From contig NC_135362.1 of the NCBI RefSeq assembly GCF_051622035.1, forward strand, positions 26,161,001 through 26,225,000: 64,000 bases of DNA, written 5' to 3'. This document shows positions 1 through 64,000 of this stretch, piece by piece. Positions within the stretch are counted from its first letter, which is position 1, and each line of letters begins with the position of its first letter. This stretch comes from Arctopsyche grandis. Taxonomy: Eukaryota > Arthropoda > Insecta > Trichoptera > Hydropsychidae. The notes below the pieces were generated by a model that was not told where the DNA came from, did not search any database, and saw nothing but the letters and a program-made list of their open reading frames with translations. The position numbers and the translations under genes are program-made.

Positions 1-51
1 ATAAATGTTAAACCCCTTATTGGTTCTAAGAAAACCAATCTCCACTCGATT

Positions 52-1996
52 TTATCGTTTCTTTTTCATCAAAAACGCCATACCATGAGACCTGAAATGT
101 TTGTCAAGTTCGACGTTGTTATCAAAAGTTTCCGGACATTCCGGACACTGAAAATTAATTTCTATTTCTGCTTTTGCTGCTGGCTTCCTCCATTTCCTTC
201 TCTTCTTAGCGCCGAATCCAGACCTATCCTCCTTTTTAATAAAACATTTCTTGTCTTCTATGTAAACCTCTGCATTCACGATGCTGTGCTTGGCTTCTAG
301 ATGAGTAGCAAATGCAGATTTGTAAGTGAAGCAAAGACCGCATTCCATGCACTGATATACCGTGCATTCATCACGATGCGTTATAATATGTCTATAAAAT
401 ATGACATTGTTTAGCGTCTTGAACGCACATAGTGAGCAATTGAAGACTGAAGAGTTCAATCCGGAGACAGGTGATGCTACAACATTCGCGATGGTACATC
501 TCTTAGTCTGAGGTCTGAGTCTCTTTTTAGGTTTTGTTGGAGTAGTCTCCGGAATTACTACAACTTCCTCTATAGAGGGAATTGTGGATTCTTCGACACT
601 ACTGCCGACATCTACATTCTCCATTTCGCTGTCTGGACTGCTCGCAAAATTCGGATCATCAACCGCTTCCGAGCTCGGATTTGTCTGTTCAGTAGACAAG
701 CAAGCTTCTCTTGAATACTTAAGTCTGGTTGCCTTATCACGTTTTCCCATCAGCAAAGCGTTCTTGTGAAAATCAAAACATTGCATGTTTTGTTTGTACG
801 GCATACATTTACCGACGTGTTTCTTCAGCTGGCGGATATTCATGACGAAATGTTTACAACCGGGACATACGTATATGTATTTGACTTTAGTAGCATGCGA
901 GAAATGATCTACAATGTGTTCGGAAACGTTTTCTTTTGCGAACTTGCAGTTGCAGACTGTGCAATGGTAGACTGCGACAGATTGGAAAATTCTCTCCTCG
1001 TGCACCGATTGGCAGTGCGACTTCAGCTCTTCGGACGTCTCACACTCCAGCGCGCACAGCAGGCAAGTGAAATAGACTTTCAAATGCTTTTTGAAGTGTG
1101 TTTGTATTTCTTGTTCGCGGAACGAAGATGTACAAGAGTCGGCTACACAGTTGACGTACATGATCCGTGAATAGTGGAAACAGACGAAGGTCATGTGACG
1201 TTCCAGCATGTTTTCTATAGGGAAGACCAAGCCACATTCCGGACAAATGTGAGGAGTTTCCTTAGCGTGAGCCTTTTGATGAGCGATCAGCGAGCATTTG
1301 TTGGGCAGGATGCGTTTGCAGTGGTGGCATGTGTGGTCGAACACTTCGGAATCGTCTATACGTTGATAATGATGCGAACGGATGACTTCAACAGATTTTT
1401 GAGTAGTCTCTTTGAACCTAAATGAACAGATTTGGCATGAATCGCTTGGATTAAATGTAACAATGTCGATGGGATCCTCGGAGATCTGCTCCTGATCTAT
1501 ATTTTCGACAGAACAATCCACAATGGTTGCATTATCTTCTTTCGGTTCATCGTCAGACGACAAAATTCCATATTTCTTCAATAGATCAGTGCCGTCATTC
1601 AGATTATTACTGGTAGCTAAATTAGTTTTCATCATTTCGATCGGTAGAGGTTCGATGGTGAAGTCTGACAACGAATACTTGAAATCTTTGTTTTCGTGCG
1701 ACTCTAAGTGCATAAACATCATGCATCGATTCGTGAAGAATAGTTTGGTGTTGCATTGCTTGCAAAAGAGAGTTATTTTTACACTCGCCCGATTTATATG
1801 ACGTTGGTAACTAGATTCTAAGGCGAATCTGAAATAAAATGAGTTATTATAATAAAAGCTTTGTATTTCGAATGTTACAATGTTTTTTGACTAACCTATC
1901 ACCACATATACATGGGTACGTTGTTGTGAATTCTGGAGGGCATATATACGTGTTTGTGACCTTTGAAAATATGAGCTTCTTTACCATTTCCTCCAT
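52..1996 (-). CDS. ZNF532/592/687-type C2H2 zinc-finger protein, copy A
   Basis: I read two exons. Exon 1 (1,896-1,996) starts at an ATG in a good context (ACAACATGG) and ends at a GTTAGT donor. Exon 2 (52-1,828) follows a TTTATTTCAG acceptor. They join in phase to 625 residues. The single-ORF reading that starts at 1,722 begins at internal Met70 and loses the first finger. Fingers include C29/C31, C56/C59 with H74/H78, and about eight more, split by a Ser/Glu-rich linker and a basic Lys/Arg stretch near the C terminus. The stretch HINRASVKITLFCKQC resembles the ZNF592/687 motif with Arg-Ser-Val-Arg-Ile before the next Cys pair. A nuclear DNA-binding or chromatin role is inferred from that family. 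The family call rests on memory. Confidence 0.85.
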
Positions 1997-3391
1997 GTTG
2001 TCTGAAAAATATAATAACTTAATTAAGTATTATTCATATATAAGTTTGATTCTATTTGCCTAACTACGTCCATACAAACAACTAACAATCACACTGTGAA
2101 TGATGATAGCATAAATATGTCTCATATTACTACTATTAGTATGAGTGTTAATAACAAGTTGTTCAGTTTTGCTTTCTTAAGAGGACTGTATACCCGAAAC
2201 CTTAATTTTATTGCCGTTCCTTTCTTCGATATATATATTGAGTGAATGCGACAATATATATCAATATATATATTGAGTGAATTCGACCAGATAATACGGA
2301 TTTTAAATCAACAAAATCGAGGTTTCGTATTCTCCAGTTTTCTCCTCCGAAACTGGACCAATTTTTAAAAAAATTTCATCATCGGTATGAGAAAGATATT
2401 TTCTATGCAACTGTGCGCGTATTTTTTTTAAAATCGACCGATAAACAAGCACGCTGGACTCTTTTCGTGGGTGTAAAAAAGAGGCGATTTTATAGATGTT
2501 TGGGGGCTCCTAGCTCCTATAAAAAATAAAAGCACAGATGCATGCCAATGGTGGATATCCATAGCATATTAAAAAATAATTTTCTAGTGCCATAATTGAG
2601 GAAGGAAGAAGTGTAATACGTTTGTATGGACAAGGCTTATTATATTTTTAAACATAAAACTAAGGCTTATTATATTTTTAAACTTCATAGTTTAAGAAGT
2701 GTTCAAAGCATAACCAAAAACTATTATTAAAAAATAATAATCATATATGAAAATTCTAAAATATTTAGCCGTAAATAATCTAATATATAATTTCGAAAGA
2801 GACTTTGTATATATGTATTGTTGGTTCGTAACTTTGTAAACAAGTAAAAAATTTCCATGAATATGTGGGGACGGGGGGACGAGCCTTTGCCCTCGGGGCG
2901 CGCCAGGGGTGCGCCGGAGATGAAGGCCTGGGGCGCAGGCCCGAGGCGCGCCAGGGGCGAAAGCCTGGGGGTATATCGGGGGCGAAGGCCGGGGGTGAAT
3001 CCGTGACGTTAAATTTAATAAAACAGAAACAAATGAATGTTCAAATAAATTTGAATATAACAAGACTATTCAAATAAATTTTTTACTATGAGATTGGCCA
3101 TTTTTAAGCGGTTTATATTACAACTGCCGAGCAAAGCCGGGTAAAACCACTAGAAAGATATAAAAATTAAAAAATCGTTACGAACCAGTTGAAAGTTTGT
3201 TTTTCACTTGCAATAGTTAGTAACAATGCATTAGTTAATAATAGTTAATAACAATGCGTAGTTCCCAACCCGATCTGTCAACGATAAGCGTTGGATATGG
3301 AAAGGTCTAAATAGGATTAAATACGGCCTCAGACAAAATATTTTAAGTTGATGTCTTTCAAAGATTTGGGTGGGTATTTATTTATCTACAT
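1997..3391. other. Intergenic, upstream of the zinc-finger gene (copy A)
   Basis: No gene is recognised. A near-duplicate of about 25 bp containing ATATATATTGAGTGAAT lies at 2,229-2,282. The stretch 2,995-3,060 resembles, in reverse, the sequence near 50,580-50,645, so part of this is a dispersed repeat. It ends in a CTAG-terminated segment at about 3,125-3,152 that could be a Helitron-like end. The 5' leader of the zinc-finger gene must begin here, but I cannot place a promoter. Confidence 0.5.
2866..3000. repeat. GC-rich degenerate minisatellite block
   Basis: About 130 bp of very GC-rich sequence sits in AT-rich surroundings. It is built from imperfect short units related to GCGCCAGGGGCGAAAGCCTG. 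Copy B (about 54,362-54,485) lacks roughly a dozen bases here, so the block changes length. Open reading frames across it on both strands are by-products of base composition. Confidence 0.6.
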
Positions 3392-3617
3392 CAGTGGCGG
3401 CTCGTGAAAATTCATAGAGGGAGGGCTACATAGATTAATCGGTTTGTAACTAACTCGTTGACCATACCAGTTATCAAATGCAGACAAAAATAGCATGCAT
3501 ATGTATTATACTGGGAGATTTGCAGCCCTGCAGCCCATATAGACGGCAAAAATAGCATGCATTTGTACTATACTGGGAGGCTGTAGCCCCGCAGCCCATA
3601 TAGACGAGCTGCCACTG
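3392..3617. mobile_element. Non-autonomous hAT-type MITE, 226 bp
   Basis: The ends are inverted: CAGTGGCGGCTCGT on the left and the reverse complement of a close variant on the right (GACGAGCTGCCACTG). The flanks are ATCTACAT (3,384-3,391) and ATCTAGAT (3,618-3,625), an 8-bp target duplication with one change. In copy B both flanks are ATCTAGAT, so the change happened in copy A after the copies split. Terminal CAGTGGCGG with an 8-bp duplication fits hAT. No coding capacity. Confidence 0.8.
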
Positions 3618-3653
3618 ATCTAGATATCTGCGAAATGGCGAGGCTTTAACTAT

Positions 3654-4420
3654 GTGGCGGCTCGCTTATACGACATGGTCGAGTTTGGTTGCCTTCCTGC
3701 GAGTGGGGACCAACTCGGCTGGGTTCGGAGAGCCACTACTCACTCTGCCTTTAGCTGTCATATAATAAACACGTGCATTAACATGCCAGTCGTCTCATTC
3801 GTTCATCCCCCATAACTATAAAGCAACGTATGTCTTCTTTGTAATTTTATGAATCGAACTCACAAAACATCAGCCAGTTGGCAAATATCACGTCTACGTC
3901 CGTTGATTCGCGAGTAGAAAGAAAATTCTATAACTGTTGTATAGAATCAGTTTAAAGTGAATATCAGCACCATTGAAAGTTCTTGATAATAGGCCAAGTA
4001 AGCCAGGGGTCGGCAAACTTATTAGTCAACCGAGCCAAATTTCAACAGTACAACGATTGAGATTTCTTTTGAGAGCCAAACTTTTTTAATTTTAACTATA
4101 TACATGTATTCTGTTTATTAAAATTAAAGTTTTAAGTCTTAATTAAACTATAGGTACATTGAATAGAACTCGATATCATACTTAATAATTAATATATGAT
4201 AATGATATCATACTTAATAATCTTATTTATTAATAAAAATTAAATTGTAAGTAAGGTATTATAGGGGATGGAACGAATGAGACGACTGGCTTGTTAATGT
4301 ACGTTGATTTATTATGACGGCCGAAAACGAAGTGATAGTAGCAACACTGAACACGGCCGCGTTGGTCCCAACTCGTAGGAAGGTGAACGAACTCGACCAT
4401 GTCATATAGCGAGCCGCCAC
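3654..4420. mobile_element. Long-TIR DNA transposon remnant with a nested insertion
   Basis: Two inverted arms of about 160 bp (3,654-3,813 and 4,261-4,420) begin GTGGCGGCTCGC and end GCGAGCCGCCAC. They have diverged by a visible number of substitutions, so the element is not young. The interior includes an end of a different element (from 4,004). I see no convincing target duplication. The terminal GTGGCGGCTCG is shared with the hAT-type MITEs at 3,392 and 9,395, so this may be a larger relative of theirs. Confidence 0.65.
4004..4090 (+). mobile_element. hAT-like end nested in the long-TIR element
   Basis: The sequence begins CAGGGGTCGGCAAACTTATT, a widespread hAT terminal form, followed by GAGAGCCAAAC. 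Only one end is clear. A possible opposite-end relative with AGCCACATGCGGCTCTTT lies at about 28,605-28,625 but belongs to another locus. Confidence 0.45.
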
Positions 4421-4632
4421 AGTATTATAGTATAGGGCGGGTTAAAGGTTTTGACCGTATCCCGGCCTATGGAAACTCTGTGGAGTTTGGAAGAAAATCT
4501 TTATTGCTCGATTATGCTCGAGAAATGTTTTAAGGAAGCGAAACGTTTTAAACGATTCCTCTTGATAACTAACGTACCTTGCTATGCAGCAGAAGATCTG
4601 CGTACTCACTTTCTATTTCATATTATTATCTG

Positions 4633-5476
4633 TAGTGCTGCTGGTCAGAATTGTATATGTATGTGTGACTTTAAGTCAATCGTTTCCTGACAGAGTTTGC
4701 TAATTTTTCTGATTTCATTGTTGAAACGGTGCCCGCATTAAATTGGCTAAAACTATCCTACCTACATATGTACTATGTAACCACAATTTGAGTATGATTA
4801 TTGTACAATGAAATTTATTTACAAGTTAAAGTTCATAGATGTCTCGTTAATTTCGAGTTTTCAGTGTCTCGTAATTCAGCGATTTATGTTATAGGACGGG
4901 TTAAAGGTTTCGACCGTTTCCCGGCCTATGGAAACTCAGTTGAGTTTGAAAGAGGATCGTTTATTTTTGTTCAATTGTTACAATGGTTATTGTATGTACG
5001 AAGAGGTTGGGCTTCGGAGAAGTGAGCTGGTTGAACTCCAGAGGTTCACTCTGGTGTTGGGAGCTGGTGCGTCGATTTATATACGTTCTGGGTTCGTTTC
5101 CAGGACACGTGTGCTAGAGACACGTGTTGACCTGTTTTCGAGGCACGTGTCTTCGGTACACGTGTGGTTTATAGCTATGGAGTCGTGTGCCACGCGTAAA
5201 CGACTTTTCAGGACATGTGTCGCGGTTGCGTGATGACATCACTGTTGGGTTTCGTTCGTTTTACGATCGAGCAATGAACTCTTTCTTCTGGAATGGTCGA
5301 AGGGGACGTTGCCCTTGATTTATGCATGTTTGTACAGGATCGATGATGTGATCACTGGTTTTTATTCGTAATAGCACAAGTCGTGCTTTATTCCCACACT
5401 GTAATAAAAATGCTGCATTGTTTGTAATTGGCTAGGAAGGCGCCTTGGGGTTTACTTGTTAGGCCTTCCTGGTATA
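4633..5476 (+). mobile_element. SINE, interrupted (copy A)
   Basis: Parts of the local SINE family lie in order: the core with GTTGAAACGG (about 4,640-4,760), the CATAGATGTCTC segment (about 4,830-4,890) and the terminal hairpin (5,432-5,472). Between the last two sits an insert (about 4,894-5,415). Its start GGGTTAAAGGTTTCGACCG also occurs in variant form at about 4,438, and it carries the E-box cluster. The tRNA-like head is not clear. Confidence 0.5.
5106..5164. promoter_or_regulatory. Cluster of four CACGTG E-boxes (copy A)
   Basis: CACGTG occurs at 5,106, 5,121, 5,144 and 5,159, giving 15-, 23- and 15-bp spacing. A TATA-like TTTATATA lies about 20 bp upstream. CACGTG is the palindromic site of bHLH-type factors (CLOCK/CYCLE, Myc/Max, USF/MITF classes). 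It sits inside what looks like an inserted repeat, perhaps the remains of a retroelement promoter, so function on a host gene is unproven. Confidence 0.4.
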
Positions 5477-5479
5477 TAC

Positions 5480-6920
5480 ATATGTATACAAACAAAAAAT
5501 AAAGAAGCAAATATTTATATAAATTTTTAATGTTTTATTGAGATTTACAACAATAAGAATTTCATATGTGAATTTTTTATGCCATAAGAATTCTAAACAT
5601 CTATACTTATAAATAGTGAGTATAAAAATTGACAACCTATAAAATTGACTCAATAATCTTTCAAACAATTTCACAGCTATGTGTGTTTATCTTGTATAAA
5701 ATAAAACATATTAAATAATATCATGTCATTAAAGTTTGCAAAATAACTGCTGCGCATTTTCAATCTAAAATACACGTGCAATTCGTGTATCGTTGAGTGA
5801 ACTATCACAGTATAACTTCAAATGAATAGTTGGATTATATATAATATGTATACGCTCACATTTATATAACATAAAAATATAAACCGAATACGTATTCATG
5901 AAATACATGCATGTATATGATATATACATTTAAATATGTAATTGGATTACATTGAATAAGAGTTAAATGTAGTATTATGTTTTGAAATATCAATATATAT
6001 ATATACACATTTGACATCTATGAACAAAACTAAATATTTATATAATAATATATTATATTATGTCTAAATCAATGTAAGCAAATCGATATCAGACTTCACA
6101 GTATGGATTTATACTCTTAATCTACATATACATTAGAGTAGCATTCACTTTGCCGAAACATTTTGATTTCTTATCTTTTTTTTGCGGACGTAGAATATGC
6201 ATAAAATATAAAAAAAATTGTATCTCAATTTTAAATGGTTGCAATAATTTATTTTCTGAAAAAAAAAACTAACAAGACCACCCATTTAAAGGTGAGGTAT
6301 AATTTTTATATTATATTTTTATTATATGTATGTATGTATATCCTTAAAATAAAACAATTAGACTATGCCACTATTACCACGACACATACTTTTTGGAATA
6401 TTATAATAATCATTTTTTTCCGTCAAAGTGAGAGTCACTCAAAAATACATAGGTATATAAAAAGAATAATATTTTAAGTTTTATTTGCTTCTATGGATGC
6501 AATGAAAAAAAGTAAAAATGTCGAAATGGTCTAATATCAAAACTTAAATTTAAATTTCAGGCACATTATCCATAGTAGAAAAAATAAAATTTGTATATTT
6601 ATGTTTATTCATTTCAAAGGATCATACGAATTCGCCGGCGTATTGTTCTTGCACAAATTGAATACTTTAAGCGATAAAAATGATGGATAAATAACAATTA
6701 CACTGATATATGCTTAGTTTGAAATAACACGGAAGAAACAACGATACAATCAATAAATTATTTATCATAATTTTACACAGATTAAATATAAAAATATATT
6801 GCCAAGTAAATACAATTATTTAAAAAAAAGGATGATTTTATGTATGTGCAAGAAAATTTTTTAATAATAAACAATGTGCATTTAAGCATTCCATAATAAT
6901 TTTATGATACAAAAAGGTAT
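5480..6920. other. AT-rich non-coding stretch (copy A)
   Basis: I see no gene or clear repeat. The sequence is strongly AT-rich with short (TA)n and TATGTATG runs. Confidence 0.5.
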
Positions 6921-7149
6921 ATATCGATGGCTTGGTGCACAGATATTGTATGTCCACTTTTGAATTTGTATCGAATTTAAAATTTGTAGGTGCTGGAATA
7001 ATTCAGGTTTTTCTTTTCAAGGTAATTTTTGTATACCACTTGAATTACATTGAAAGGAAAAACCTGAATTATTCCAGCATCTACAAACTGAAAATTCGAT
7101 ACAAATTCAAAAATGGACATACAATATTTATGCAACAAGCCATCGATAT
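6921..7149. mobile_element. Palindromic MITE, 229 bp
   Basis: Two arms of about 95 bp are inverted copies: ATATCGATGGCTTGGTGCAC on the left and its near reverse complement ending CATCGATAT on the right, with a short loop around 7,020-7,050. It would fold into one long hairpin. There is no coding capacity and no target duplication longer than TA. It is also present in copy B (about 58,409-58,637). Confidence 0.65.
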
Positions 7150-7496
7150 GTCGTATTGTTTAAAATACATCATAGTTCAGTGCTCATTTCGCCCTGCTCT
7201 GCAGATCTTGCAAATGTTTGAGCTTTGATCCCGTGCCGTGTCATGCCGTTGTACGTCGCTTCGGATGCTTTTCTGGTTTCGTTCAGTTTCCCTGAAGCCT
7301 ATATACACAAAAAATATTATTTTCACGTACATAATACGCGGGAAAGTATAAAGATAAAATTATCAATACAAAGTTTAGAAATAAAACAACAGCATGATAT
7401 TTAATCTGTGATTTTCTGAACAATAAATGCATAAATTATATGGATCCATCAGCAACAACAATTCTTAATTTATCTAAATACATATAAAATCGATGC

Positions 7497-7843
7497 GGTG
7501 CAAACGATCGACAAGCACCAGACAGACTGAACCACAGATTAACGACACGTGTACCTTATGCGTGCGCACTGCTCGCACTTACACTAAGCGAAATCTACCC
7601 GAAGTCCCGACATACCTACCCTGTATACGTTCTGTGCTTCTGATAATTTAGTTCCGAATTTTGCCTTATTAAACTCGCCAGAAAGATCCAACTCAATTTT
7701 AATAATTGCATCTGTGCACATCGAAAGGTTACTCGTCATCTGATGTGCAATCTATCATTCGTGAAGTCGAGAATTGCGTTTAAAGCAGCCATCCAGTTAA
7801 TCTGTGGTTCAGTCTGTCTGGCGCTTGTCGATCGTGTGCACCA
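7497..7843. mobile_element. Short inverted-repeat element, ~347 bp
   Basis: A 46-bp terminal inverted repeat (left 7,497-7,543, right 7,796-7,843) contains CGATCGACAAGC and AGACTGAACCACAGATTAAC with about two mismatches. The interior is unique and non-coding. The 61-residue minus-strand ORF at 7,736-7,921 overlaps the right arm and is not a gene. No family is assigned. Confidence 0.55.
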
Positions 7844-7849
7844 AACCCA

Positions 7850-9394
7850 TATAAAATCTATATGAAGTAGGAATTCAATTAAAAACTCTTCAGATGACTC
7901 AATCAGTGAGGGTAGCAGCAACGTAGTCTAATTCTACATATCTACAAAATAAAAATTAATGTTTGTTTTCTTGCTATGCAAATCTACAGTTTTAAATTTA
8001 AAATCACTGAATTTGGTATACTATGTTACGATTTTATTAAAATGTTCCGTTTTGAACTTTTTTTTCGAATTTTCCTCTGCCCGAGAAACGGCAAGTAATT
8101 TGACTACTAACGAATAAAATTACAAGTGTGTTTGTATGTTTATCTTCAGTTAAAAGCCAAAATACTATATATAAATGAATTTGTCACGTTTTAGAAAACA
8201 TGTATTGTTCAACATGTAGTGTTCAACATGTATTCGACCAACTTTTTGATCTTTTAATATAAATTATTATGATAATTTCATTATTTGATAATCGACTATG
8301 TGTATGTGGTTTTTTCTAAGTAACTTAATAACAGACATCACCCAAGATATTGTTTAATGTATGTATATTTTTTAATTATTTAATTTTTAATGCATATTTT
8401 GATGTGTATCGATGATAAATCATGCTTCCGTAACTTTGGAATGTTTGTAGATAATTTATTTCATATATAATTTGTTTATTATTATAACAGTTTAATATAA
8501 TCATAATGTAATACATAAAAACATATGATAAAGAAATCAAAAAGAAAAGGATTGGGAAAAGGAATAAATTTTGGATTACATTATATTATATTATATTAAA
8601 TTAAATTAATGTAAAATATGATATGAGTAACTAAAAGCAAATTAAAAGCAAAAGCGTATGACTATTTATCTACTGTCAATATGAATGGATAAAATAGTCA
8701 AGATAAGTGAATGAAAAGTTGAACGTTACAATAATATTATGTTTATTTATAGTTGCGGAATAGTTTCAAAAGGATGAAATTTTTTATGACTAATCCAACC
8801 TAACCAATCACCTTCATTAAGTGCTCTTGAATAAGTATGTGATTATTCTATAATTTAAGTGCATTTTGGTTTACATATATACAAATTAAAAATACTTGTA
8901 TCATACCTGGCATCATAGTATCTGCAATGCTAAATCGGAATCTAAACTGATGCCGCAAGTATTTCTCATATTCATATTGAAATATTTAAAGCTTATGAAT
9001 ATATGTATATATAAAATAAAACGTCGATAATAGCGACATCTTAATCTCGTAGATACACATGATATATAAGAATAATGTAAATATATATACAGAGTGGGGC
9101 AAAAACAATTAGACGATTTGTATCTCGTAAATGAACACTTTAGCTGAGAAGTAAATGTGTATTCAGTATCTAAACAAAAGCAAAATACTAGTGTGTAAAA
9201 GTTTATAACATAATATCTGTAATTCTGCTAAGATCCTTCAATATTTGAGTATAAATCTTTTGATTTTAATTTATGATCCACTAGGCATATGAATATGGAA
9301 ACTCTAGTGACTCTTGTTAATCAAAAAAGTCTCATAAAAAAGCGTGTGGGTACAATTGTCGACTTGAAGGACAAAACAATAATATAATTGGGTT
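7850..9394. other. Non-coding stretch (copy A)
   Basis: This is mostly AT-rich sequence. A minus-strand stretch at 8,907-8,964 is open, follows an AG and ends at a CCAG|GTATGA donor. It could be a further 3' exon of the EPB41L4A-like gene, but its phase does not follow from the exons I trust and it lacks a good pyrimidine tract. About 9,100-9,130 has a GTGGGGCAAAA motif like some transposon ends. Confidence 0.35.
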
Positions 9395-10007
9395 CAGTGG
9401 CGGCTCGTCTTTAAGGACAACCGGGGCACTGCCCCACACACATTTCTCCTATCCAAACAAGAAAATAGATTTTGTATATTGTTGGTGTCTCGAGTGTTTG
9501 TTTATCCCCCTCACCAAGTGGTTAGTTCGTAATTCAATTTGGGCAGTCGCTCATCTGCCGTGGTCCCGTGGTCGCCAGCTTCAAATAGCCTGCTACTCTG
9601 GCACTTGCGAGTGGTACTGTATTTAGAGTGTAGACAGTCAGTGGAAGCAGAGAAAAAATCCGTATTACCGTATACAGAAGGTCGCTTTTAGTTGACTGCG
9701 AAAAGGTCTATATGGGGCTCCGGTCGTTTACGTTCTCTATACGATTTGAAGAATACACGTTTTTCGATATTTTAACTGTATATGTTTAAATTGTCAATCA
9801 CAATTTGATTTTTTTATTAATAAAATTTTTGCTTTTTCAGAACACAATGAACGAAGTCGATAATTTGTTGAAAAAAAGTCACTTTCCTTGCATAAAATGT
9901 TACTAAAAATATATTAAGTTAATTTTTTTTGGAAAAAAAAGCATGTAGGGGGGAAGGCTCTAGCCTCCTTGTGCCCCACCTGTTTTTAAAGTCACGACCC
10001 GCCCCTG
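9395..10007. mobile_element. Non-autonomous hAT-type element, 613 bp (copy A)
   Basis: The left end is CAGTGGCGGCTCGTC and the right end is CACGACCCGCCCCTG. The perfect 8-bp target duplication ATTGGGTT lies at 9,387-9,394 and 10,008-10,015. The terminal motif and duplication length fit the hAT superfamily. There is no transposase frame. It lies downstream of the last EPB41L4A-like exon. Confidence 0.85.
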
Positions 10008-10121
10008 ATTGGGTTTATAATGTTATGGAAGTCTTAGATAGTCTATGTATAATATGTGTTATGATGTTATTTAGCTACTGAATGTTTACTTTTCAATTCA
10101 AGTGTTCATTAAGTTACTTAC

Positions 10122-10144
10122 CGTTTAATAGTTTCCACCCAATT
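10122..10144 (-). CDS. EPB41L4A: Candidate 23-bp micro-exon
   Basis: A 23-bp segment lies between acceptor AATGCAG and strong donor GTAAGTAAC. Joined to the preceding exon it reads Q-IGWKLLN and leaves one base. It is only 46 bp from the upstream exon, an intron shorter than usual, so it may instead be a chance pair of sites. Confidence 0.3.
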
Positions 10145-10190
10145 CTGCATTGATATAATTAAAAAGTGATCAATTTCAACTCATACTTAC

Positions 10191-10444
10191 TGAGTGCTCT
10201 CTATGAGCGGTTTTAAGATGATTTGGAGACTGTTATCCGTAGACGGACCTCCGTTTCGTTTCACGTTAGCGTTCGCATCCGTCTGTCGGGTCAGCGTAGA
10301 ATGGACAGCGGTGGTGCTTCTACTAGCGTTTTTATAATGATCACTATGGTGAATACTATTACTGCGTAGGCTACCACCGTTCTGTCGATGATGACCCATA
10401 ACAAAGATTCCGGAGTCTACAAAGTTGTTGTTGGACGCGTGTCT
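10191..10444 (-). CDS. EPB41L4A: EPB41L4A-like 3' exon (copy A)
   Basis: This exon follows a GTGAACAG acceptor, is phase 0 at entry, and encodes [20 protein letters not shown] through LKPLIESTQ. The reading frame meets TAA at once, but the same bases are a strong donor (CA|GTAAGTATG). The exon may therefore end the protein (ESTQ-stop) or splice on, perhaps to the 23-bp candidate exon at 10,122-10,144. Confidence 0.7.
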
Positions 10445-13400
10445 CTGTTCACATCACATCAATTATTTCAAACACATTACACATTAAACTGTATAGTAAT
10501 ATAATAATTATATATTGTATTTGTATTTGTACAGTGAACATTGTTTCTCTCGTTTAAAAAAAAAATTAAATCATTCCATCAATGTGTTCCAGCGACATAC
10601 TAGTTGATGTACAATAATGTGGATTATGGAAAATGATTGAATTTGAAGGCTCGTAAAGCTCTTTATAATAAATATATGTCTTTATAATGAATCAATGAGT
10701 GTTTTCCTTGCTTATAATATAGTAATGTTCCATTGAGCATATTTCAGTAATCGCACACTTCGGAGCTCATCGTTGTCTCGTTGAAAAACGCCGATGGGCG
10801 TTGTATTTTGAGCATGTACAAAGTAAACAAGAATACTACCCGTTAAGCCTTTCCAGATTGAATTGCAAAAAAATGCATTGAACATGGGTCGTGTAATCCG
10901 TGTCATTCATTTGTCAATGTTTATAAAGACTGGTTTACACTGGAATTTCTGAATTTATAACCATAGTAGAATTTCCCAATGGAAATCCCTAACTGCTGAG
11001 TATTTTAGATTGTGGCATGGCATTTAGGTTGTGAGCATTACATTTTAACAATAATGAATAAGATGAAACTAGTTTTGGAAAAATACATTCATTAATAGAC
11101 TTCTTTAATTTATTTTATATTGTTGCAAGATATATTAGAGAGTCTAAACACACCTTCACAAAACTTGAAATCCTCGGCGGTAGTTATCTAGGGTTTGTTT
11201 GGATTAGTTACAATTTTTATACTTGCTTTCTATTGGATTTCTAAATAATTCTAGTTGGAAAGTTGGTGAAATTTTCAGCGTGGGGGGCTTTCAACAGAAA
11301 AGACGTTAGCACCAAAGGGTTGTCAACAATTATTTTACAGGTATTACTTAAACAAATAACTATAATTTTGTTCAAATTCATTAATTCGACGTATCGAAAA
11401 TTTCCATTATAAAAAACAGCTTCAAAAAATTGAAAAAGTATTTTAACTTGTATTTCAAAAACCTGACCTATTAAAAGTTTTAAGTTTTAGTCTGGAAATC
11501 TTAAAATTTGACTACCTACCACCTGAAATTACTCTTGGTTGGGATCAATCACATCTCAACCGTACTGAAAAATAACGATGAGCTCCGAAGCCTGTAAATA
11601 CATATGTATATGCGGTATGGAAAACGCTGCCTTAACCTCCATCGGCCAAATTCTAAAACGAGTCAAATCATACATGTGTGAATCTACATTGTTATCGATA
11701 CTATACCATAACCATTATAATTACAGAAGCCAGAAAAAGCACTACTTGTCGAAAGCGATCGATCAGTTTCAAAACTAAGTGTTATTCAGAGGTGTCTACG
11801 GTAACAACTGTGGTGTGAAAGAGGATATGTGTAAACGGTGTGAAGCATTAAAGCTCGAAATTAGGCCCACTCACATTGAAAGCATAGGTGGCATCACTAC
11901 GCACATAGTAGAGGGGTCCCCTGTGCTTGTTGAGTGTGGCTCGCCCCTCGGACTGTACGCTGGCCAGGGAGCGTAAGCTTCCCCCGGCGCGTCCACGTCC
12001 CAGTCTGGCCGTGCCTCGTGACTCCTGACCAACACCCCAGTCGCCCGGTGAACCAAATTTGTAAGCTAACCCTGTGTTAGAAGGCTGTACATATTTATTT
12101 ACAGCTGGATTGATGGGAGGCTTCTGGCGTGTAAGACTAAGGGATGCCAAGTCAGCCGAGAGGGAATGGGGAGTCAGGCAGTGGGGAGCCATGGAATATG
12201 GAATCAGAGGGCGGAGGCTACTCACTGAGGGTGTGTTGATTTGTTGTCTTACACCATTCACGGCAGGACATTTCGCACTGTCACTCGATCTGAAAGCATA
12301 CAATCGTAGAAATGCTGTGAAAGAGATTCTTTACATTAAAATACATTGATACTGTATATGTTATGCATTAATTTCATGACGAATTTCAACGTTAAGATTT
12401 GGATCTACATGAAAAGGTTTCAGTGAATATTCGACAACAAGTACTTATGTAGTAGTACTTAAAATAAATTTATTACTTATGACAAGTTCCGTAACAATGG
12501 ACTTCTAAGAAATTCCATCAAAACAAATTGTAGTTTTGGAAACTACATTTTTTCAGCGGATGCTTTATTATTGTATATATTTACATAATAGTATAAATGT
12601 GTGATAAGTTCTCATAGTACATATTCATAATTTCATCACAACTCGGGGGGTTTTTATTTTTAATATTTTTTGAAATATAACATTAGTATTTTCTAATTAT
12701 ATTTCAATAATCCTGGTATTATAAATAGCATATAAAGACTTTAAATACATACATACGTATTATATATTTTTTGATTGAATACTATTAATGAAATAATATT
12801 TAAATAAATTTCACACGTTATTATAATAGATTTATATCATTTAGCTAGTTGCAAATAGCCCATAATTTGCAGATATAGTACCTGCAAATAGCCACAACCA
12901 TTTAAATATTCTTTGTACCCTGTTTTTTTTAAAGATGATACTCCATGGGGCTTTTATCAGATTCAATTAATAAAGAAATACTCATTATGGCTGTATAAAA
13001 ATGGCCATAATACAAGTTCTTTCGAGGATGATAAATAAACGAGTGAACGTTTCAGACAAAGAACCCCCCCATTAAGGATTGGGAGCACAATTTAACTGAC
13101 ATTTTTCTTTTCTCAAATATATCTCTTTATTAAGTTAAATAAAATTTTGAGCAAAGTATTTCCAGAGACCTTTGGTAGCCTTGGTAACCCATTGGGTGAC
13201 ACCACTGAGGATATGTGGTAAAAGAAGCCACGGAAGACGACGACAAGTGGCACTCACCGTTCAGACGAGTAAGCATAGTCTTGATCGGCTCCAAGTCCAG
13301 AATCTGTATGCTCATGAGAAACGCGAGAGCTAGATATAAGTTCTCCACTTGAACTGTTGCTAGCACTAGCTATCGGCTGACGGGCAGAATTTCCTCCGGT

Positions 13401-41707: not shown

Positions 41708-41709
<2 letters not shown>

Positions 41710-47554: not shown

Positions 47555-47563
47555 ATATTTAAT

Positions 47564-48227: not shown

Positions 48228-48803
48228 GATTAGGAGTGGGACGCGTGTATGAGTAAATTACACGCATCACGCGTACTTGTCCCGTATTATCCTCCAACCT
48301 GGGATGTTCTCCTGGTACGAGTTCATATTTTTTCCGTAAGGGCCACCGATTTATTATCACGGCTATTTTCAAGAAAAAAGAAAAATACCCAAATCTTATT
48401 GGTCAAATAATACATTCCAATCAATATGAATCATGTATTTTGAAGGTTCGTAATGATGCTATTTGATCAATAGAAATTTAGATTTAGAATTTCCCCATTG
48501 CATCGACTACTGAAATCCAGGGACTTAATTTAGGGGGGGGGGGGGGAGGCAAACTCTGGTCAATTTGTAGCTATTTTTTTATAAAGCCCTTTTTTTTTAA
48601 GAAGCTTCTGATCGACATTTTGAACTTGTTAAGCTTCTGATCGACATTTGATATTATTAATATGAAACTCTATTCATAAAATACGATATCATTCGGTTCA
48701 TAACGACGCACATTATTTTATTATCAGATTAAAGTTTTGTGTCGTAAAATTTACATTTGTTGCACGTAAGCATTCCTATTTCCTACGGGAATGTTTCCAG
48801 GAA
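48228..48803. other. Upstream region of the CRTAP-like gene
   Basis: It holds a G run (about 48,533-48,546) and a short direct repeat containing AAGCTTCTGATCGACATTT (about 48,601 and 48,631). I cannot place a promoter with confidence. Confidence 0.4.
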
Positions 48804-48941
48804 GTGAATGACCTCATTGGTCGCCGTCATTATAGAAGTGGGTCGACTAGTAAATGGTTCAGTCTGGGGTTATCAAAACAGATCACGCAGCTTCAACATC
48901 TGTTTATCACATTTTTTTTTGTATTGACGCTTTATTCCGCA

Positions 48942-51324: not shown

Positions 51325-51547
51325 CCGACTATACCACTGATTAGATGTATATATATATATATATTTGTATGTAGCTAACTTATGGAAAAATTTAGATGGG
51401 TTTTTTACCCCTACTTATAATAGAATTATACGTGAAGAAGTATCATATATATATATATACATATATATGTATAATATTATATTCCTCAGATAGTACATAA
51501 ATGTTAAACCCCTTATTGGTTCTAAGAAAACCAATCTCCACTCGATT

Positions 51548-53493: not shown

Positions 53494-56400
53494 GTTGTCT
53501 GAAAAATATAATAACTTAATTAAGTATTATTCATATATAAGTTTGATTCTATTTGCCTAACTACGTCCATACAAACAACTAACAATCACACTGTGAATGA
53601 TGATAGCATAAATATGTCTCATATTACTACTATTAGTATGAGTGTTAATAACAAGTTGTTCAGTTTTGCTTTCTTAAGAGGACTGTATACCCGAAACCTT
53701 AATTTTATTGCCGTTCCTTTCTTCGATATATATATTGAGTGAATGCGACAATATATATCAATATATATATTGAGTGAATTCGACCAGATAATACGGATTT
53801 TAAATCAACAAAATCGAGGTTTCGTATTCTCCAGTTTTCTCCTCCGAAACTGGACCAATTTTTAAAAAAATTTCATCATCGGTATGAGAAAGATATTTTC
53901 TATGCAACTGTGCGCGTATTTTTTTTAAAATCGACCGATAAACAAGCACGCTGGACTCTTTTCGTGGGTGTAAAAAAGAGGCGATTTTATAGATGTTTGG
54001 GGGCTCCTAGCTCCTATAAAAAATAAAAGCACAGATGCATGCCAATGGTAGATATCCATAGCATATTAAAAAATAATTTTCTAGTGCCATAATTGAGGAA
54101 GGAAGAAGTGTAATACGTTTGTATGGACAAGGCTTATTATATTTTTAAACATAAAACTAAGGCTTATTATATTTTTAAACTTCATAGTTTAAGAAGTGTT
54201 CAAAGCATAACCAAAAACTATTATTAAAAAATAATAATCATATATGAAAATTCTAAAATATTTAGCCGTAAATAATCTAATATATAATTTCGAAAGAGAC
54301 TTTGTATATATGTATTGTTGGTTCGTAACTTTGTAAACAAGTAAAAAATTTCCATGAATATGTGGGGACGGGGGACGAGCCTTTGCCCTCGGGGCGCGCC
54401 GGAGATGAAGGCCTGGGGCGCAGGCCCGAGGCGCGCCAGGGGCGAAAGCCTGGGGGTATATCGGGGGCGAAGGCCGGGGGTGAATCCGTGACGTTAAATT
54501 TAATAAAACAGAAACAAATGAATGTTCAAATAAATTTGAATATAACAAGACTATTCAAATAAATTTTTTACTATGAGATTGGCCATTTTTAAGCGGTTTA
54601 TATTACAACTGCCGAGCAAAGCCGGGTAAAACCACTAGAAAGATATAAAAATTAAAAAATCGTTACGAACCAGTTGAAAGTTTGTTTTTCACTTGCAATA
54701 GTTAGTAACAATGCATTAGTTAATAATAGTTAATAACAATGCGTAGTTCCCAACCCGATCTGTCAACGATAAGCGTTGGATATGGAAAGGTCTAAATAGG
54801 ATTAAATACGGCCTCAGACAAAATATTTTAAGTTGATGTCTTTCAAAGATTTGGGTGGGTATTTATTTATCTAGATCAGTGGCGGCTCGTGAAAATTCAT
54901 AGAGGGAGGGCTACATAGATTAATCGGTTTGTAACCAACTCGTTGACCATACCAGTTATCAAATGCAGACAAAAATAGCATGCATATGTATTATACTGGG
55001 AGATTTGCAGCCCTGCAGCCCATATAGACGGCAAAAATAGCATGCATTTGTACTATACTGGGAGGCTGTAGCCCCGCAGCCCATATAGACGAGCTGCCAC
55101 TGATCTAGATATCTGCGAAATGGCGAGGCTTTAACTATGTGGCGGCTCGCTTATACGACATGGTCGAGTTTGGTTGCCTTCCTGCGAGTGGGGACCAACT
55201 CGGCTGGGTTCGGAGAGCCACTACTCACTCTGCCTTTAGCTGTCATATAATAAACACGTGCATTAACATGCCAGTCGTCTCATTCGTTCATCCCCCATAA
55301 CTATAAAGCAACGTATGTCTTCTTTGTAATTTTATGAATCGAACTCACAAAACATCAGCCAGTTGGCAAATATCACGTCTACGTCCGTTGATTCGCGAGT
55401 AGAAAGAAAATTCTATAACTGTTGTATAGAATCAGTTTAAAGTGAATATCAGCACCATTGAAAGTTCTTGATAATAGGCCAAGTAAGCCAGGGGTCGGCA
55501 AACTTATTAGTCAACCGAGCCAAATTTCAACAGTACAACGATTGAGATTTCTTTTGAGAGCCAAACTTTTTTAATTTTAACTATATACATGTATACTGTT
55601 TATTAAAATTAAAGTTTTAAGTCTTAATTAAACTATAGGTACATTGAATAGAACTCGATATCATACTTAATAATTAATATATGATAATGATATCATACTT
55701 AATAATCTTATTTATTAATAAAAATTAAATTGTAAGTAAGGTATTATAGGGGATGGAACGAATGAGACGACTGGCTTGTTAATGTACGTTGATTTATTAT
55801 GACGGCCGAAAACGAAGTGATAGTAGCAACACTGAACACGGCCGCGTTGGTCCCAACTCGCAGGAAGGTGAACGAACTCGACCATGTCATATAGCGAGCC
55901 GCCACAGTATTATAGTATAGGGCGGGTTAAAGGTTTTGACCGTATCCCGGCCTATGGAAACTCTGTGGAGTTTGGAAGAAAATCTTTATTGCTCGATTAT
56001 GCCCGAGAAATGTTTTAAGGAAGCGAAACGTTTTAAACGATTCCTCTTGATAACTAACGTACCTTGCTATGCAGCAGAAGATCTGCGTACTCACTTTCTA
56101 TTTCATATTATTATCTGTAGTGCTGCTGGTCAGAATTGTATATGTATGTGTGACTCTAAGTCAATCGTTTCCTGACAGAGTTTGCTAATTTTTCTGATTT
56201 CATTGTTGAAACGGTGCCCGCATTAAATTGGCTAAAACTATCCTACCTACATATTACCGTACTATGTAACCACAATTTGAGTATGATTATTGTACAATTA
56301 AATTTATTTACAAGTTAAAGTTCATAGATGTCTCGTTAATTTCGAGTTTTCAGTGTCTCGTAATTCAGCGATTTATGTTATAGGACGGGTTAAAGGTTTC

Positions 56401-56594
56401 GACCGTTTCCCGGCCTATGGAAACTCAGTTGAGTTTGAAAGAGGATCGTTTATTTTTGTTCAATTGTTACAATGGTTATTGTATGTACGAAGAGGTTGGG
56501 CTTCGGAGAAGTGAGCTGGTTGAACTCCAGAGGTTCACTCTGGTGTTGGGAGCTGGTGCGTCGATTTATATACGTTCTGGGTTCGTTTCCAGGA

Positions 56595-56653
56595 CACGTG
56601 TGCTAGAGACACGTGTTGACCTGTTTTCGAGGCACGTGTCTTCGGTACACGTG
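56595..56653. promoter_or_regulatory. Cluster of four CACGTG E-boxes (copy B)
   Basis: This is the same cluster in the second copy, with CACGTG at 56,595, 56,610, 56,633 and 56,648. All four sites are unchanged between copies. Confidence 0.4.
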
Positions 56654-59600
56654 TGGTTTATAGCTATGGAGTCGTGTGCCACGCGTAAACGACTTTTCAG
56701 GACATGTGTCGCGGTTGCGTGATGACATCACTGTTGGGTTTCGTTCGTTTTACGATCGAGCGATGAACTCTTTCTTCTGGAATGGTCGAAGGGGACGTTG
56801 CCCTTGATTTATGCATGTTTGTACAGGATCGATGATGTGATCACTGGTTTTGATTCGTAATAGCACAAGTCGTGCTTTATTCCCACACTGTAATAAAAAT
56901 GCTGCATTGTTTGTAATTGGCTAGGAAGGCGCCTTGGGGTTTACTTGTTAGGCCTTCCTGGTATATACATATGTATACAAACAAAAAATAAAGAAGCAAA
57001 TATTTATATAAATTTTTAATGTTTTATTGAGATTTACAACAATAAGAATTTCATATGTGAATTTTTTATGCCATAAGAATTCTAAACATCTATACTTATA
57101 AATAGTGAGTATAAAAATTGACAACCTATAAAATTGACTCAATAATCTTTCAAACAATTTCACAGCTATGTGTGTTTATCTTGTATAAAATAAAACATAT
57201 TAAATAATATCATGTCATTAAAGTTTGCAAAATAACTGCTGCGCATTTTCAATCTAAAATACACGTGCAATTCATGTATCGTTGAGTGAACTATCACAGT
57301 ATAACTTCAAATGAATAGTTGGATTATATATAATATGTATACGCTCACATTTATATAACATAAAAATATAAACCGAATACGTATTCATGAAATACATGCA
57401 TGTATATGATATATACATTTAAATATGTAATTGGATTACATTGAATAAGAGTTAAATGTAGTATTATGTTTTGAAATATCAATATATATATATACACATT
57501 TGACATCTATGAACAAAACTAAATATTTATATAATAATATATTATATTATGTCTAAATCAATGTAAGCAAATCGATATCAGACTTCACAGTATGGATTTA
57601 TACTCTTAATCTACATATACATTAGAGTAGCATTCACTTTGCCGAAACATTTTGATTTCTTATCTTTTTTTTGCGGATGTAGAATATGCATAAAATATAA
57701 AAAAAATTGTATCTCAATTTTAAATGGTTGCAATAATTTATTTTCTGAAAAAAAAAACTAACAAGACCACCCATTTAAAGGTGAGGTATAATTTTTATAT
57801 TATATTTTTATTATATGTATGTATGTATATCCTTAAAATAAAACAATTAGACTATGCCACTATTACCACGACACATACTTTTTGGAATATTATAATAATC
57901 ATTTTTTCCGTCAAAGTGAGAGTCACTCAAAAATACATAGGTATATAAAAAGAATAATATTTTAAGTTTTATTTGCTTCTATGGATGCAATGAAAAAAAG
58001 TAAAAATGTCGAAATGGTCTAATATCAAAACTTAAATTTAAATTTCAGGCACATTATCCATAGTAGAAAAAATAAAATTTGTATATTTATGTTTATTCAT
58101 TTCAAAGGATCATACGAATTCGCCGGCGTATTGTTCTTGCACAAATTGAATACTTTAAGCGATAAAAATGATGGATAAATAACAATTACACTGATATATG
58201 CTTAGTTTGAAATAACACGGAAGAAACAACGATACAATCAATAAATTATTTATCATAATTTTACACAGATTAAATATAAAAATATATTGCCAAGTAAATA
58301 CAATTATTTAAAAAAAAGGATGATTTTATGTATGTGCAAGAAATTTTTTTAATAATAAACAATGTGCATTTAAGCATTCCATAATAATTTTATGATACAA
58401 AAAGGTATATATCGATGGCTTGGTGCACAGATATTGTATGTCCACTTTTGAATTTGTATCGAATTTAAAATTTGTAGGTGCTGGAATAATTCAGGTTTTT
58501 CTTTTCAAGGTAATTTTTGTATACCACTTGAATTACATTGAAAGGAAAAACCTGAATTATTCCAGCATCTACAAACTGAAAATTCGATACAAATTCAAAA
58601 ATGGACATACAATATTTATGCAACAAGCCATCGATATGTCGTATTGTTTAAAATACATCATAGTTCAGTGCTCATTTCGCCCTGCTCTGCAGATCTTGCA
58701 AATGTTTGAGCTTTGATCCCGTGCCGTGTCATGCCGTTGTACGTCGCTTCGGATGCTTTTCTGGTTTCGTTCAGTTTCCCTGAAGCCTATATACACAAAA
58801 AATATTATTTTCACGTACATAATACGCGGGAAAGTATAAAGATAAAATTATCAATACAAAGTTTAGAAATAAAACAACAGCATGATATTTAATCTGTGAT
58901 TTTCTGAACAATAAATGCATAAATTATATGGATCCATCAGCAACAACAATTCTTAATTTATCTAAATACATATAAAATCGATGCGGTGCAAACGATCGAC
59001 AAGCACCAGACAGACTGAACCACAGATTAACGACACGTGTACCTTATGCGTGCGCACTGCTCGCACTTACACTAAGCGAAATCTACCCGAAGTCCCGACA
59101 TACCTACCCTGTATACGTTCTGTGCTTCTGATAATTTAGTTCCGAATTTTGCCTTATTAAACTCGCCAGAAAGATCCAACTCAATTTTAATAATTGCATC
59201 TGTGCACATCGAAAGGTTACTCGTCATCTGATGTGCAATCTATCATTCGTGAAGTCGAGAATTGCGTTTAAAGCAGCCATCCAGTTAATCTGTGGTTCAG
59301 TCTGTCTGGCGCTTGTCGATCGTGTGCACCAAACCCATATAAAATCTATATGAAGTAGGAATTCAATTAAAAACTCTTCAGATGACTCAATCAGTGAGGG
59401 TAGCAGCAACGTAGTCTAATTCTACATATCTACAAAATAAAAATTAATGTTTGTTTTCTTGCTATGCAAATCTACAGTTTTAAATTTAAAATCACTGAAT
59501 TTGGTATACTATGTTACGATTTTATTAAAATGTTCCGTTTTGAACTTTTTTTTCGAATTTTCCTCTGCCCGAGAAACGGCAAGTAATTTGACTACTAACG

Positions 59601-60882
59601 AATAAAATTACAAGTGTGTTTGTATGTTTATCTTCAGTTAAAAGCCAAAATACTATATATAAATGAATTTGTCACGTTTTAGAAAACATGTATTGTTCAA
59701 CATGTAGTGTTCAACATGTATTCGACCAACTTTTTGATCTTTTAATATAAATTATTATGATAATTTCATTATTTGATAATCGACTATGTGTATGTGGTTT
59801 TTTCTAAGTAACTTAATAACAGACATCACCCAAGATATTGTTTAATGTATGTATATTTTTTAATTATTTAATTTTTAATGCATATTTTGATGTGTATCGA
59901 TGATAAATCATGCTTCCGTAACTTTGGAATGTTTGTAGATAATTTATTTCATATATAATTTGTTTATTATTATAACAGTTTAATATAATCATAATGTAAT
60001 ACATAAAAACATATGATAAAGAAATCAAAAAGAAAAGGATTGGGAAAAGGAATAAATTTTGGATTACATTATATTATATTATATTAAATTAAATTAATGT
60101 AAAATATGATATGAGTAACTAAAAGCAAATTAAAAGCAAAAGCGTATGACTATTTATCTACTGTCAATATGAATGGATAAAATAGTCAAGATAAGTGAAT
60201 GAAAAGTTGAACGTTACAATAATATTATGTTTATTTATAGTTGCGGAATAGTTTCAAAAGGATGAAATTTTTTATGACTAATCCAACCTAACCAATCACC
60301 TTCATTAAGTGCTCTTGAATAAGTATGTGATTATTCTATAATTTAAGTGCATTTTGGTTTACATATATACAAATTAAAAATACTTGTATCATACCTGGCA
60401 TCATAGTATCTGCAATGCTAAATCGGAATCTAAACTGATGCCGCAAGTATTTCTCATATTCATATTGAAATATTTAAAGCTTATGAATATATGTATATAT
60501 AAAATAAAACGTCGATAATAGCGACATCTTAATCTCGTAGATACACATGATATATAAGAATAATGTAAATATATATACAGAGTGGGGCAAAAACAATTAG
60601 ACGATTTGTATCTCGTAAATGAACACTTTAGCTGAGAAGTAAATGTGTATTCAGTATCTAAACAAAAGCAAAATACTAGTGTGTAAAAGTTTATAACATA
60701 ATATCTGTAATTCTGCTAAGATCCTTCAATATTTGAGTATAAATCTTTTGATTTTAATTTATGATCCACTAGGCATATGAATATGGAAACTCTAGTGACT
60801 CTTGTTAATCAAAAAAGTCTCATAAAAAAGCGTGTGGGTACAATTGTCGACTTGAAGGACAAAACAATAATATAATTGGGTT

Positions 60883-61495
60883 CAGTGGCGGCTCGTCTTT
60901 AAGGACAACCGGGGCACTGCCCCACACACATTTCTCCTATCCAAACAAGAAAATAGATTTTGTATATTGTTGGTGTCTCGAGTGTTTGTTTATCCCCCTC
61001 ACCAAGTGGTTAGTTCGTAATTCAATTTGGGCAGTCGCTCATCTGCCGTGGTCCCGTGGTCGCCAGCTTCAAATAGCCTGCTACTCTGGCACTTGCGAGT
61101 GGTACTGTATTTAGAGTGTAGACAGTCAGTGGAAGCAGAGAAAAAATCCGTATTACCGTATACAGAAGGTCGCTTTTAGTTGACTGCGAAAAGGTCTATA
61201 TGGGGCTCCGGTCGTTTACGTTCTCTATACGATTTGAAGAATACACGTTTTTCGATATTTTAACTGTATATGTTTAAATTGTCAATCACAATTTGATTTT
61301 TTTATTAATAAAATTTTTGCTTTTTCAGAACACAATGAACGAAGTCGATAATTTGTTGAAAAAAAGTCACTTTCCTTGCATAAAATGTTACTAAAAATAT
61401 ATTAAGTTAATTTTTTTTGGAAAAAAAAGCATGTAGGGGGGAAGGCTCTAGCCTCCTTGTGCCCCACCTGTTTTTAAAGTCACGACCCGCCCCTG
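60883..61495. mobile_element. Non-autonomous hAT-type element, 613 bp (copy B)
   Basis: This is the same insertion as 9,395-10,007, with the same ATTGGGTT target duplication on both sides. The insertion therefore predates the split of the two copies. Confidence 0.85.
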
Positions 61496-61678
61496 ATTGG
61501 GTTTATAATGTTATGGAAGTCTTAGATAGTCTATGTATAATATGTGTTATGATGTTATTTAGCTACTGAATGTTTACTTTTCAATTCAAGTGTTCATTAA
61601 GTTACTTACCGTTTAATAGTTTCCACCCAATTCTGCATTGATATAATTAAAAAGTGATCAATTTCAACTCATACTTAC

Positions 61679-61932
61679 TGAGTGCTCTCTATGAGCGGTT
61701 TTAAGATGATTTGGAGACTGTTATCCGTAGACGGACCTCCGTTTCGTTTCACGTTAGCGTTCGCATCCGTCTGTCGGGTCAGCGTAGAATGGACAGCGGT
61801 GGTGCTTCTACTAGCGTTTTTATAATGATCACTATGGTGAATACTATTACTGCGTAGGCTACCACCGTTCTGTCGATGATGACCCATAACAAAGATTCCG
61901 GAGTCTACAAAGTTGTTGTTGGACGCGTGTCT
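61679..61932 (-). CDS. EPB41L4A: EPB41L4A-like 3' exon (copy B)
   Basis: Second copy of the exon at 10,191-10,444 with identical translation, the same TAA/GTAAGT ambiguity at its end, and the same candidate micro-exon at 61,610-61,632. Confidence 0.7.
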
Positions 61933-63372
61933 CTGTTCACATCACATCAATTATTTCAAACACATTACACATTAAACTGTATAGTAATATAATAATTATA
62001 TATTGTATTTGTATTTGTACAGTGAACATTGTTTCTCTCGTTTAAAAAAAAAATTAAATCATTCCATCAATGTGTTCCAGCGACATACTAGTTGATGTAC
62101 AATAATGTGGATTATGGAAAATGATTGAATTTGAAGGCTCGTAAAGCTCTTTATAATAAATATATGTCTTTATAATGAATCAATGAGTGTTTTCCTTGCT
62201 TATAATATAGTAATGTTCCATTGAGCATATTTCAGTAATCGCACACTTCGGAGCTCATCGTTGTCTCGTTGAAAAACGCCGATGGGCGTTGTATTTTGAG
62301 CATGTACAAAGTAAACAAGAATACTACCCGTTAAGCCTTTCCAGATTGAATTGCAAAAAAATGCATTGAACATGGGTCGTGTAATCCGTGTCATTCATTT
62401 GTCAATGTTTATAAAGACTGGTTTACACTGGAATTTCTGAATTTATAACCATAGTAGAATTTCCCAATGGAAATCCCTAACTGCTGAGTATTTTAGATTG
62501 TGGCATGGCATTTAGGTTGTGAGCATTACATTTTAACAATAATGAATAAGATGAAACTAGTTTTGGAAAAATACATTCATTAATAGACTTCTTTAATTTA
62601 TTTTATATTGTTGCAAGATATATTAGAGAGTCTAAACACACCTTCACAAAACTTGAAATCCTCGGCGGTAGTTATCTAGGGTTTGTTTGGATTAGTTACA
62701 ATTTTTATACTTGCTTTCTATTGGATTTCTAAATAATTCTAGTTGGAAAGTTGGTGAAATTTTCAGCGTGGGGGGCTTTCAACAGAAAAGACGTTAGCAC
62801 CAAAGGGTTGTCAACAATTATTTTACAGATATTACTTAAACAAATAACTATAATTTTGTTCAAATTCATTAATTCGACGTATCGAAAATTTCCATTATAA
62901 AAAACAGCTTCAAAAAAATTGAAAAAGTATTTTAACTTGTATTTCAAAAACCTGACCTATTAAAAGTTTTAAGTTTTAGTCTGGAAATCTTAAAATTTGA
63001 CTACCTACCACCTGAAAATACTCTTGGTTGGGATCAATCACATCTCAACCGTATTGACAAACTTCAAAAATAACGATGAGCTCCGAAGCCTGTAAATACA
63101 TATGTATATGCGGTATGGAAAACGCTGCCTTAACCTCCATCGGCCAAATTCTAAAACGAGTCAAATCATACATGTGTGAATCTACATTGTTATCGATACT
63201 ATACCATAACCATTATAATTACAGAAGCCAGAAAAAGCACTACTTGTCGAAAGCGATCGATCAGTTTCAAAACTAAGTGTTATTCAGAGGTGTCTACGGT
63301 AACAACTGTGGTGTGAAAGAGGATATGTGTAAACGGTGTGAAGCATTAAAGCTCGAAATTAGGCCCACTCAC

Positions 63373-63787
63373 ATTGAAAGCATAGGTGGCATCACTACGC
63401 ACATAGTAGAGGGGTCCCCTGTGCTTGTTGAGTGTGGCTCGCCCCTCGGACTGTACGCTGGCCAGGGAGCGTAAGCTTCCCCCGGCGCGTCCACGTCCCA
63501 GTCTGGCCGTGCCTCGTGACTCCTGACCAACACCCCAGTCGCCCGGTGAACCAAATTTGTAAGCTAACCCTGTGTTAGAAGGCTGTACATATTTATTTAC
63601 AGCTGGATTGATGGGAGGCTTCTGGCGTGTAAGACTAAGGGATGCCAAGTCAGCCGAGAGGGAATGGGGAGTCAGGCAGTGGGGAGCCATGGAATATGGA
63701 ATCAGAGGGCGGAGGCTACTCACTGAGGGTGTGTTGATTTGTTGTCTTACACCATTCACGGCAGGACATTTCGCACTGTCACTCGAT
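63373..63787 (-). CDS. EPB41L4A: EPB41L4A-like long 3' exon (copy B)
   Basis: Second copy of the exon at 11,875-12,289 with identical translation and splice sites. In copy B the upstream exons would lie beyond the right edge of the window. Confidence 0.8.
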
Positions 63788-64000
63788 CTGAAAGCATACA
63801 ATCGTAGAAATGCTGTGAAAGAGATTCTTTACATTAAAATACATTGATACTGTATATGTTATGCATTAATTTCATGACGAATTTCAACGTTAAGATTTGG
63901 ATCTACATGAAAAGGTTTCAGTGAATATTCGACAACAAGTACTTATGTAGTAGTACTTAAAATAAATTTATTACTTATGACAAGTTCCGTAACAATGGAC

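Follow-up and report, generated by a model that had tools for sequence, protein, structure and literature searches.

How a stretch of 64,000 nucleotides from the trichopteran Arctopsyche grandis (contig NC_135362.1, positions 26,161,001 to 26,225,000, hereafter the window) comes to begin and end with almost the same sequence, and to hold only part of each of two genes in between, is the question raised by this locus. The two genes, one Patj-like and the other EPB41L4A-like, carry names that we take to apply on the basis of domain and homology matches. An earlier note on this DNA had interpreted the arrangement as a tandem duplication, real or assembled. That interpretation held up as far as the topology is concerned: a head-to-tail duplication with its junction at 22.8–42.4 kb is the simplest account of the repeat and of the exon content, and a search of the window for the missing exons left it standing. 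The tandem topology itself, whether it arose in the animal or in the assembly, is regarded as very likely, and a duplication that is real in at least one haplotype as somewhat probable.

Comparison of the window with itself (self-BLAST at 1e-10, 43 matches) revealed one match far beyond all others, in which the two end blocks (Table 1) align plus/plus with 99.648% identity over 12,517 columns, with 16 mismatches and 7 gap openings. The runner-up among the 43 covers just 402 columns at 82% identity, and a chance origin of the 12.5-kb repeat is therefore excluded. The near-identical blocks of at least 12.5 kb that had been noticed before, in the same direction and about 51.5 kb apart, were thus confirmed, the period being 51,496. 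The first copy begins at base 1 of the window and the second finishes at its last base, so that 1 and 51,497 are cuts made by the window and not breakpoints. With a repeat unit of 51,496 bases, a window of 64,000 bases is bound to contain 12,504 bases in duplicate, with which the observed repeat agrees. The window contains no N bases.

The gene content between the blocks was then read from homology, splice sites and reading frames. The EPB41L4A-like gene has Pfam FERM_C matches in two frames (2.6e-07 and 2.6e-05), and its membership follows from the presence of both the FERM F3 region and the conserved C-terminal stretch. The leftmost of its exons with a homology match is at 13,937, and further exons may lie to the left of this point, into the repeat block. 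In the Patj-like gene, three coding exons join into a single open frame of 143 codons. Its L27 region scored E = 0.13 with Pfam L27_2, which is under the curated cut-off, whereas phmmer gave E = 0.0041 for the whole sequence against 3uit_A, an InaD-like L27 chain (the best single stretch reaching only 0.52), and E = 0.17 against 1vf6_A, the PALS1-associated tight junction protein; the L27 assignment of these exons is thus a modest one. The third exon matched an MPDZ PDZ1 sequence in tblastn over 25 residues at 48% identity and 30.8 bits. Its margin over the 26.2 bits of the control-query null is modest as well, and is backed by the predicted splice sites and frame.

The remaining exons of both genes were sought by tblastn on both strands, with vertebrate sequences as queries, control exons for comparison, the reversed window as a null and the best five matches kept for each query. 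Among these matches, the control queries found the later EPB41L4A exons at 84.7, 48.5 and 40.0 bits. The F1/F2a query of EPB41L4A reached at best 20.0 bits in the window versus 20.4 in the reversed window, that of 4.1R 19.2 versus 21.2, and FERM F1 of the EPB41L4A-like gene gave nothing above 27 bits in the homology search of the window. The claim that the 5′ (F1) exons of this gene are missing can therefore be kept in the form that F1 was not detected above the null level, with the refinement that the first half of F2 went undetected too. The several PDZ domains expected of Patj were represented in the window by a part of PDZ1 only (tblastn): the PSD-95 PDZ2 and PDZ3 queries gave at most 18.5 and 18.9 bits, respectively, versus 20.0 and 20.0 in the null, and a scan for the PDZ-loop motif returned eight loose matches and none with the strict pattern. 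Patj had been said to lack everything past its third coding exon, and indeed the later PDZ exons were not detected, although that third exon already carries part of PDZ1.

Particular attention was given to the interval between the two partial genes, and several candidates in or near it were set aside. These were an EPB41L4A F1 candidate at 24,141-24,079 (20.0 bits) and a 4.1R F1 candidate at 24,491-24,420 (19.2 bits), both at the null level, an INADL linker candidate at 23,176-23,135 (21.6 bits), which contains a stop, and an MPDZ PDZ1-start candidate at 39,502-39,443 (16.9 bits), again at the null level. A Pfam scan of six frame-stretches on the minus strand of 22,801-42,799 reported no families; such a scan detects single exons poorly, and this null is weak because the F2 exon at 22,680-22,800 was also unreported and the Patj L27 region remained under the cut-off. 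Taken together, tblastn, which bears most of the weight, Pfam and the motif scan gave no credible EPB41L4A 5′ or Patj PDZ exon within 22.8–42.4 kb, which was the place where such exons would have told against the duplication. The absent exons are to be read as not detected in the window, which falls short of proof.

The proposed sequence of events would be as follows. The ancestral order would have been Patj - CRTAP - zinc finger - EPB41L4A, and a segment of about 51.5 kb, reaching from a Patj intron to an EPB41L4A intron, would have been copied head-to-tail once or more. One breakpoint would lie in the intron that follows coding exon 3 of Patj and the other in the EPB41L4A-like intron that precedes the ELGDYDP exon, with the junction somewhere within the interval given in Table 1. 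The CRTAP and zinc-finger genes would have been duplicated whole, and an intact Patj would be expected to the left of the window and an intact EPB41L4A to the right of it. In keeping with this, both genes, which lie on the minus strand, are truncated on the sides that face one and the same junction, as judged from the exons that were undetected. The statement in the earlier note that the duplication cuts both genes is, however, misleading under the tandem model, as an intact copy of each would exist outside the window and the junction would add a chimeric locus. Since intact copies of both genes are left, a loss of function is not predicted.

Whether the duplication is real or assembled is harder to tell from the window sequence, and several observations speak against the explanation just given. 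The negative exon searches relied on vertebrate queries, which short or fast-evolving exons can escape; in the reversed-window null a control query still scored 26.2 bits; and the INADL PDZ2-3 query scored 23.1 bits in the window, above its null of 19.2 (this match was rejected as a PDZ exon, as it does not look PDZ-like and is placed opposite the zinc-finger frame). A further point is the distribution of the differences between the copies. Alignment with MAFFT gave 16 substitutions in 12.5 kb (0.13%) and 7 indels, namely four single-base ones within homopolymers and one each of 4, 9 and 11 bases. These differences leave 4,484 consecutive bases (6,857-11,340) without any change. In 20,000 random placements the clustering had P = 0.013 for the 16 substitutions and P = 0.0005 for substitutions and indels together, and the substitutions fell as 0, 8, 5, 0 and 3 into five bins (P = 0.0034; P = 0.0142 with ten bins), all of these being tests that were picked after the pattern was seen and that ignore constraint. 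A single duplication should diverge roughly evenly, whereas haplotypes, gene conversion or exchange between homologues would cluster the differences, so that the pattern is suggestive of copies that are allele-like or converted.

The window sequence is compatible both with a real tandem duplication (at least two copies, or a circle) and with a false haplotypic duplication, in which the assembly placed both haplotypes of a single locus one after the other, the first breaking off in the Patj intron and the second beginning in the EPB41L4A intron, with a chimeric read or a repeat common to both as a possible bridge. This false join is a serious contender, if the less probable one. Besides the allele-like clustering, it can draw on the interspersed repeats in the locus, such as the direct pair 16,755-17,154 / 33,811-34,176, which is 82% identical over 402 columns and has one member in the EPB41L4A part and the other in the junction interval. 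In the assemblies studied in PMC9516828, same-scaffold false duplications are described as common (7–24% of false duplications in older and 61–92% in newer assemblies) and as able to create false chimeric genes, and the near-identical copies on one scaffold and the possible chimeric gene of the window resemble the false heterotype duplications treated there. That paper counts gaps separating the copies among the signs of a false duplication, has heterotype duplications stem from relatively divergent haplotypes and gives heterozygosities of 0.22–0.95%, whereas the window has no N gap between its copies, although false joins may also be gap-free, and a divergence that lies below this range. Moreover, the assembler would have to invent the adjacency of two different introns. 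With no N bases and little divergence between the copies, a real duplication is favoured, and it is preferred to an assembly error.

Two further explanations deserve less weight. The window starts and ends inside the repeat, as it would if there were more than two copies, or if the contig were a linear reading, with a terminal overlap of 12.5 kb, of a circular extrachromosomal element of about 51.5 kb; any window taken from a longer contig would look alike, nothing requires more than two copies, and one circle alone would not be expected to yield 16 substitutions between its overlapping ends, which makes this account very unlikely. Still harder to credit is the idea that the zinc-finger block alone underwent a dispersed segmental duplication, while Patj and EPB41L4A are otherwise whole, interleaved and equipped with very long introns. 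If a longer dispersed repeat were cut at both window edges, the picture would be identical, and the repeat could extend past both of them, but this account needs two interleaved genes on the same strand plus a separate duplication, where under the tandem model the partial genes call for no further assumption.

If the head-to-tail duplication is accepted, it has a consequence that was absent from the earlier note. The Patj 5′ exons lie upstream of the EPB41L4A 3′ exons, which run from 22,800, on the same strand, and the junction would therefore build a Patj(5′)–EPB41L4A(3′) chimera. The third Patj exon ends in phase 0 whereas the EPB41L4A exon at 22,800 needs phase 1, and the direct splice between them is out of frame, adding 28 codons before a stop. 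The second Patj exon ends in phase 1, and splicing it to the EPB41L4A exon preserves the reading frame (as computed through that exon only). As predicted from these phases, the chimera would be in frame only if exon 3 were skipped. A real duplication with an expressed new gene, in which the Patj promoter and L27 exons would be fused in frame, by skipping of exon 3, to the EPB41L4A-like F3 region and tail together with part of F2, is an outside chance. If true, this fusion of the L27 scaffold domain would yield a polarity scaffold whose FERM region has no F1.

The coordinates of these features and of their neighbours are collected in Table 1.

Table 1. Features of the 64,000-nucleotide window, in order of position.
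Feature	Coordinates	Strand	Basis or remark
Repeat block, copy 1	1-12,502	+	Self-BLAST, MAFFT; cut by left window edge; contains zinc-finger frame
C2H2 zinc-finger frame, copy 1	55-1,890	-	612 codons stop to stop; Pfam scan covered copy 2 only
EPB41L4A-like FERM gene, 3′ part	13,937-22,800	-	Homology matches and Pfam FERM_C
EPB41L4A-like, conserved C-terminal stretch	14,337-13,937	-	Homology
EPB41L4A-like, end of F2 and F3 exons	about 16.10-15.58 kb	-	Homology
EPB41L4A-like, part of F2 (ELGDYDP exon)	22,680-22,800	-	AG acceptor at 22,800; exons run leftwards from there
Interval of putative EPB41L4A-intron/Patj-intron junction	22,801-42,364		From exon positions
Patj-like gene, 5′ part	42,365-43,068	-	L27-like region and part of PDZ1
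Patj-like exon 3	42,546-42,365	-	Ends within PDZ1
Patj-like exon 2	42,904-42,748	-	Probable donor GTCGGT, chosen by frame
Patj-like exon 1	43,068-42,979	-	Splice and frame reading
Non-LTR retrotransposon	43,427-46,903	-	Endonuclease and reverse transcriptase matches; between CRTAP and Patj
CRTAP-like (leprecan-family) open frame	48,669-50,180	+	Pfam TPR_leprecan 2.8e-58
Repeat block, copy 2	51,497-64,000	+	Self-BLAST, MAFFT; cut by right window edge
C2H2 zinc-finger frame, copy 2	51,551-53,392	-	614 codons stop to stop

Both zinc-finger frames are open, and the first difference of copy 1 from copy 2 is found at 1883; copy 2 was recognized by Pfam as zf-C2H2_ZNF592 (2.1e-09), zf-C2H2_4 (2.5e-09) and zf-C2H2 (2.4e-07). 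No second CRTAP-like copy was found in the window by nucleotide self-match, and the viral contigs scanned with the CRTAP frame contained no relative of the locus. The second open frame of the non-LTR retrotransposon is broken into overlapping pieces. An open frame on the plus strand at 39,696-40,151, without a Pfam match above the cut-off, resembles the C-terminal tail of reverse transcriptases from retrotransposons. At 40,776-41,170 and 47,548-47,968 lie two copies (79–91% identity between pieces) of a short element whose arms are inverted repeats, and which looks like a miniature inverted-repeat element. Within the junction interval, a 244-base unit occurs twice in tandem (37,096-37,576), and 36,871-37,249 matches 37,467-37,847 at 76% in the self-match. 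The direct repeat pair mentioned above might possibly have served as a substrate for unequal exchange; what it demonstrates is only that one repeat family flanks 22.8 kb on both sides. Neither tRNA genes nor Rfam families at the gathering threshold were found in the window.

The type of rearrangement is ordinary and already known, and this locus is a new instance of it. PMC5460883 reports 76 chimeric genes from tandem duplications in 15 Drosophila yakuba lines, which share with the present case the creation of a chimeric gene by tandem duplication; here a Patj-like gene is paired with an EPB41L4A-like one in a unit of about 51.5 kb, and the chimera is a predicted one. A literature search on Patj, band 4.1-like protein 4A and tandem duplication brought up no such locus, as far as titles and the beginnings of abstracts tell. 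If the duplication was assembled, it would be a false gene gain that misleads annotation, with two truncated genes and spurious paralogues, and in either event both truncated gene models deserve flagging. If it is real, CRTAP and the zinc-finger gene would be doubled, and the 5′ end of a polarity-type gene would now precede the 3′ end of a second such gene on the same strand, offering a young case in which the expression of such a chimera may be followed.

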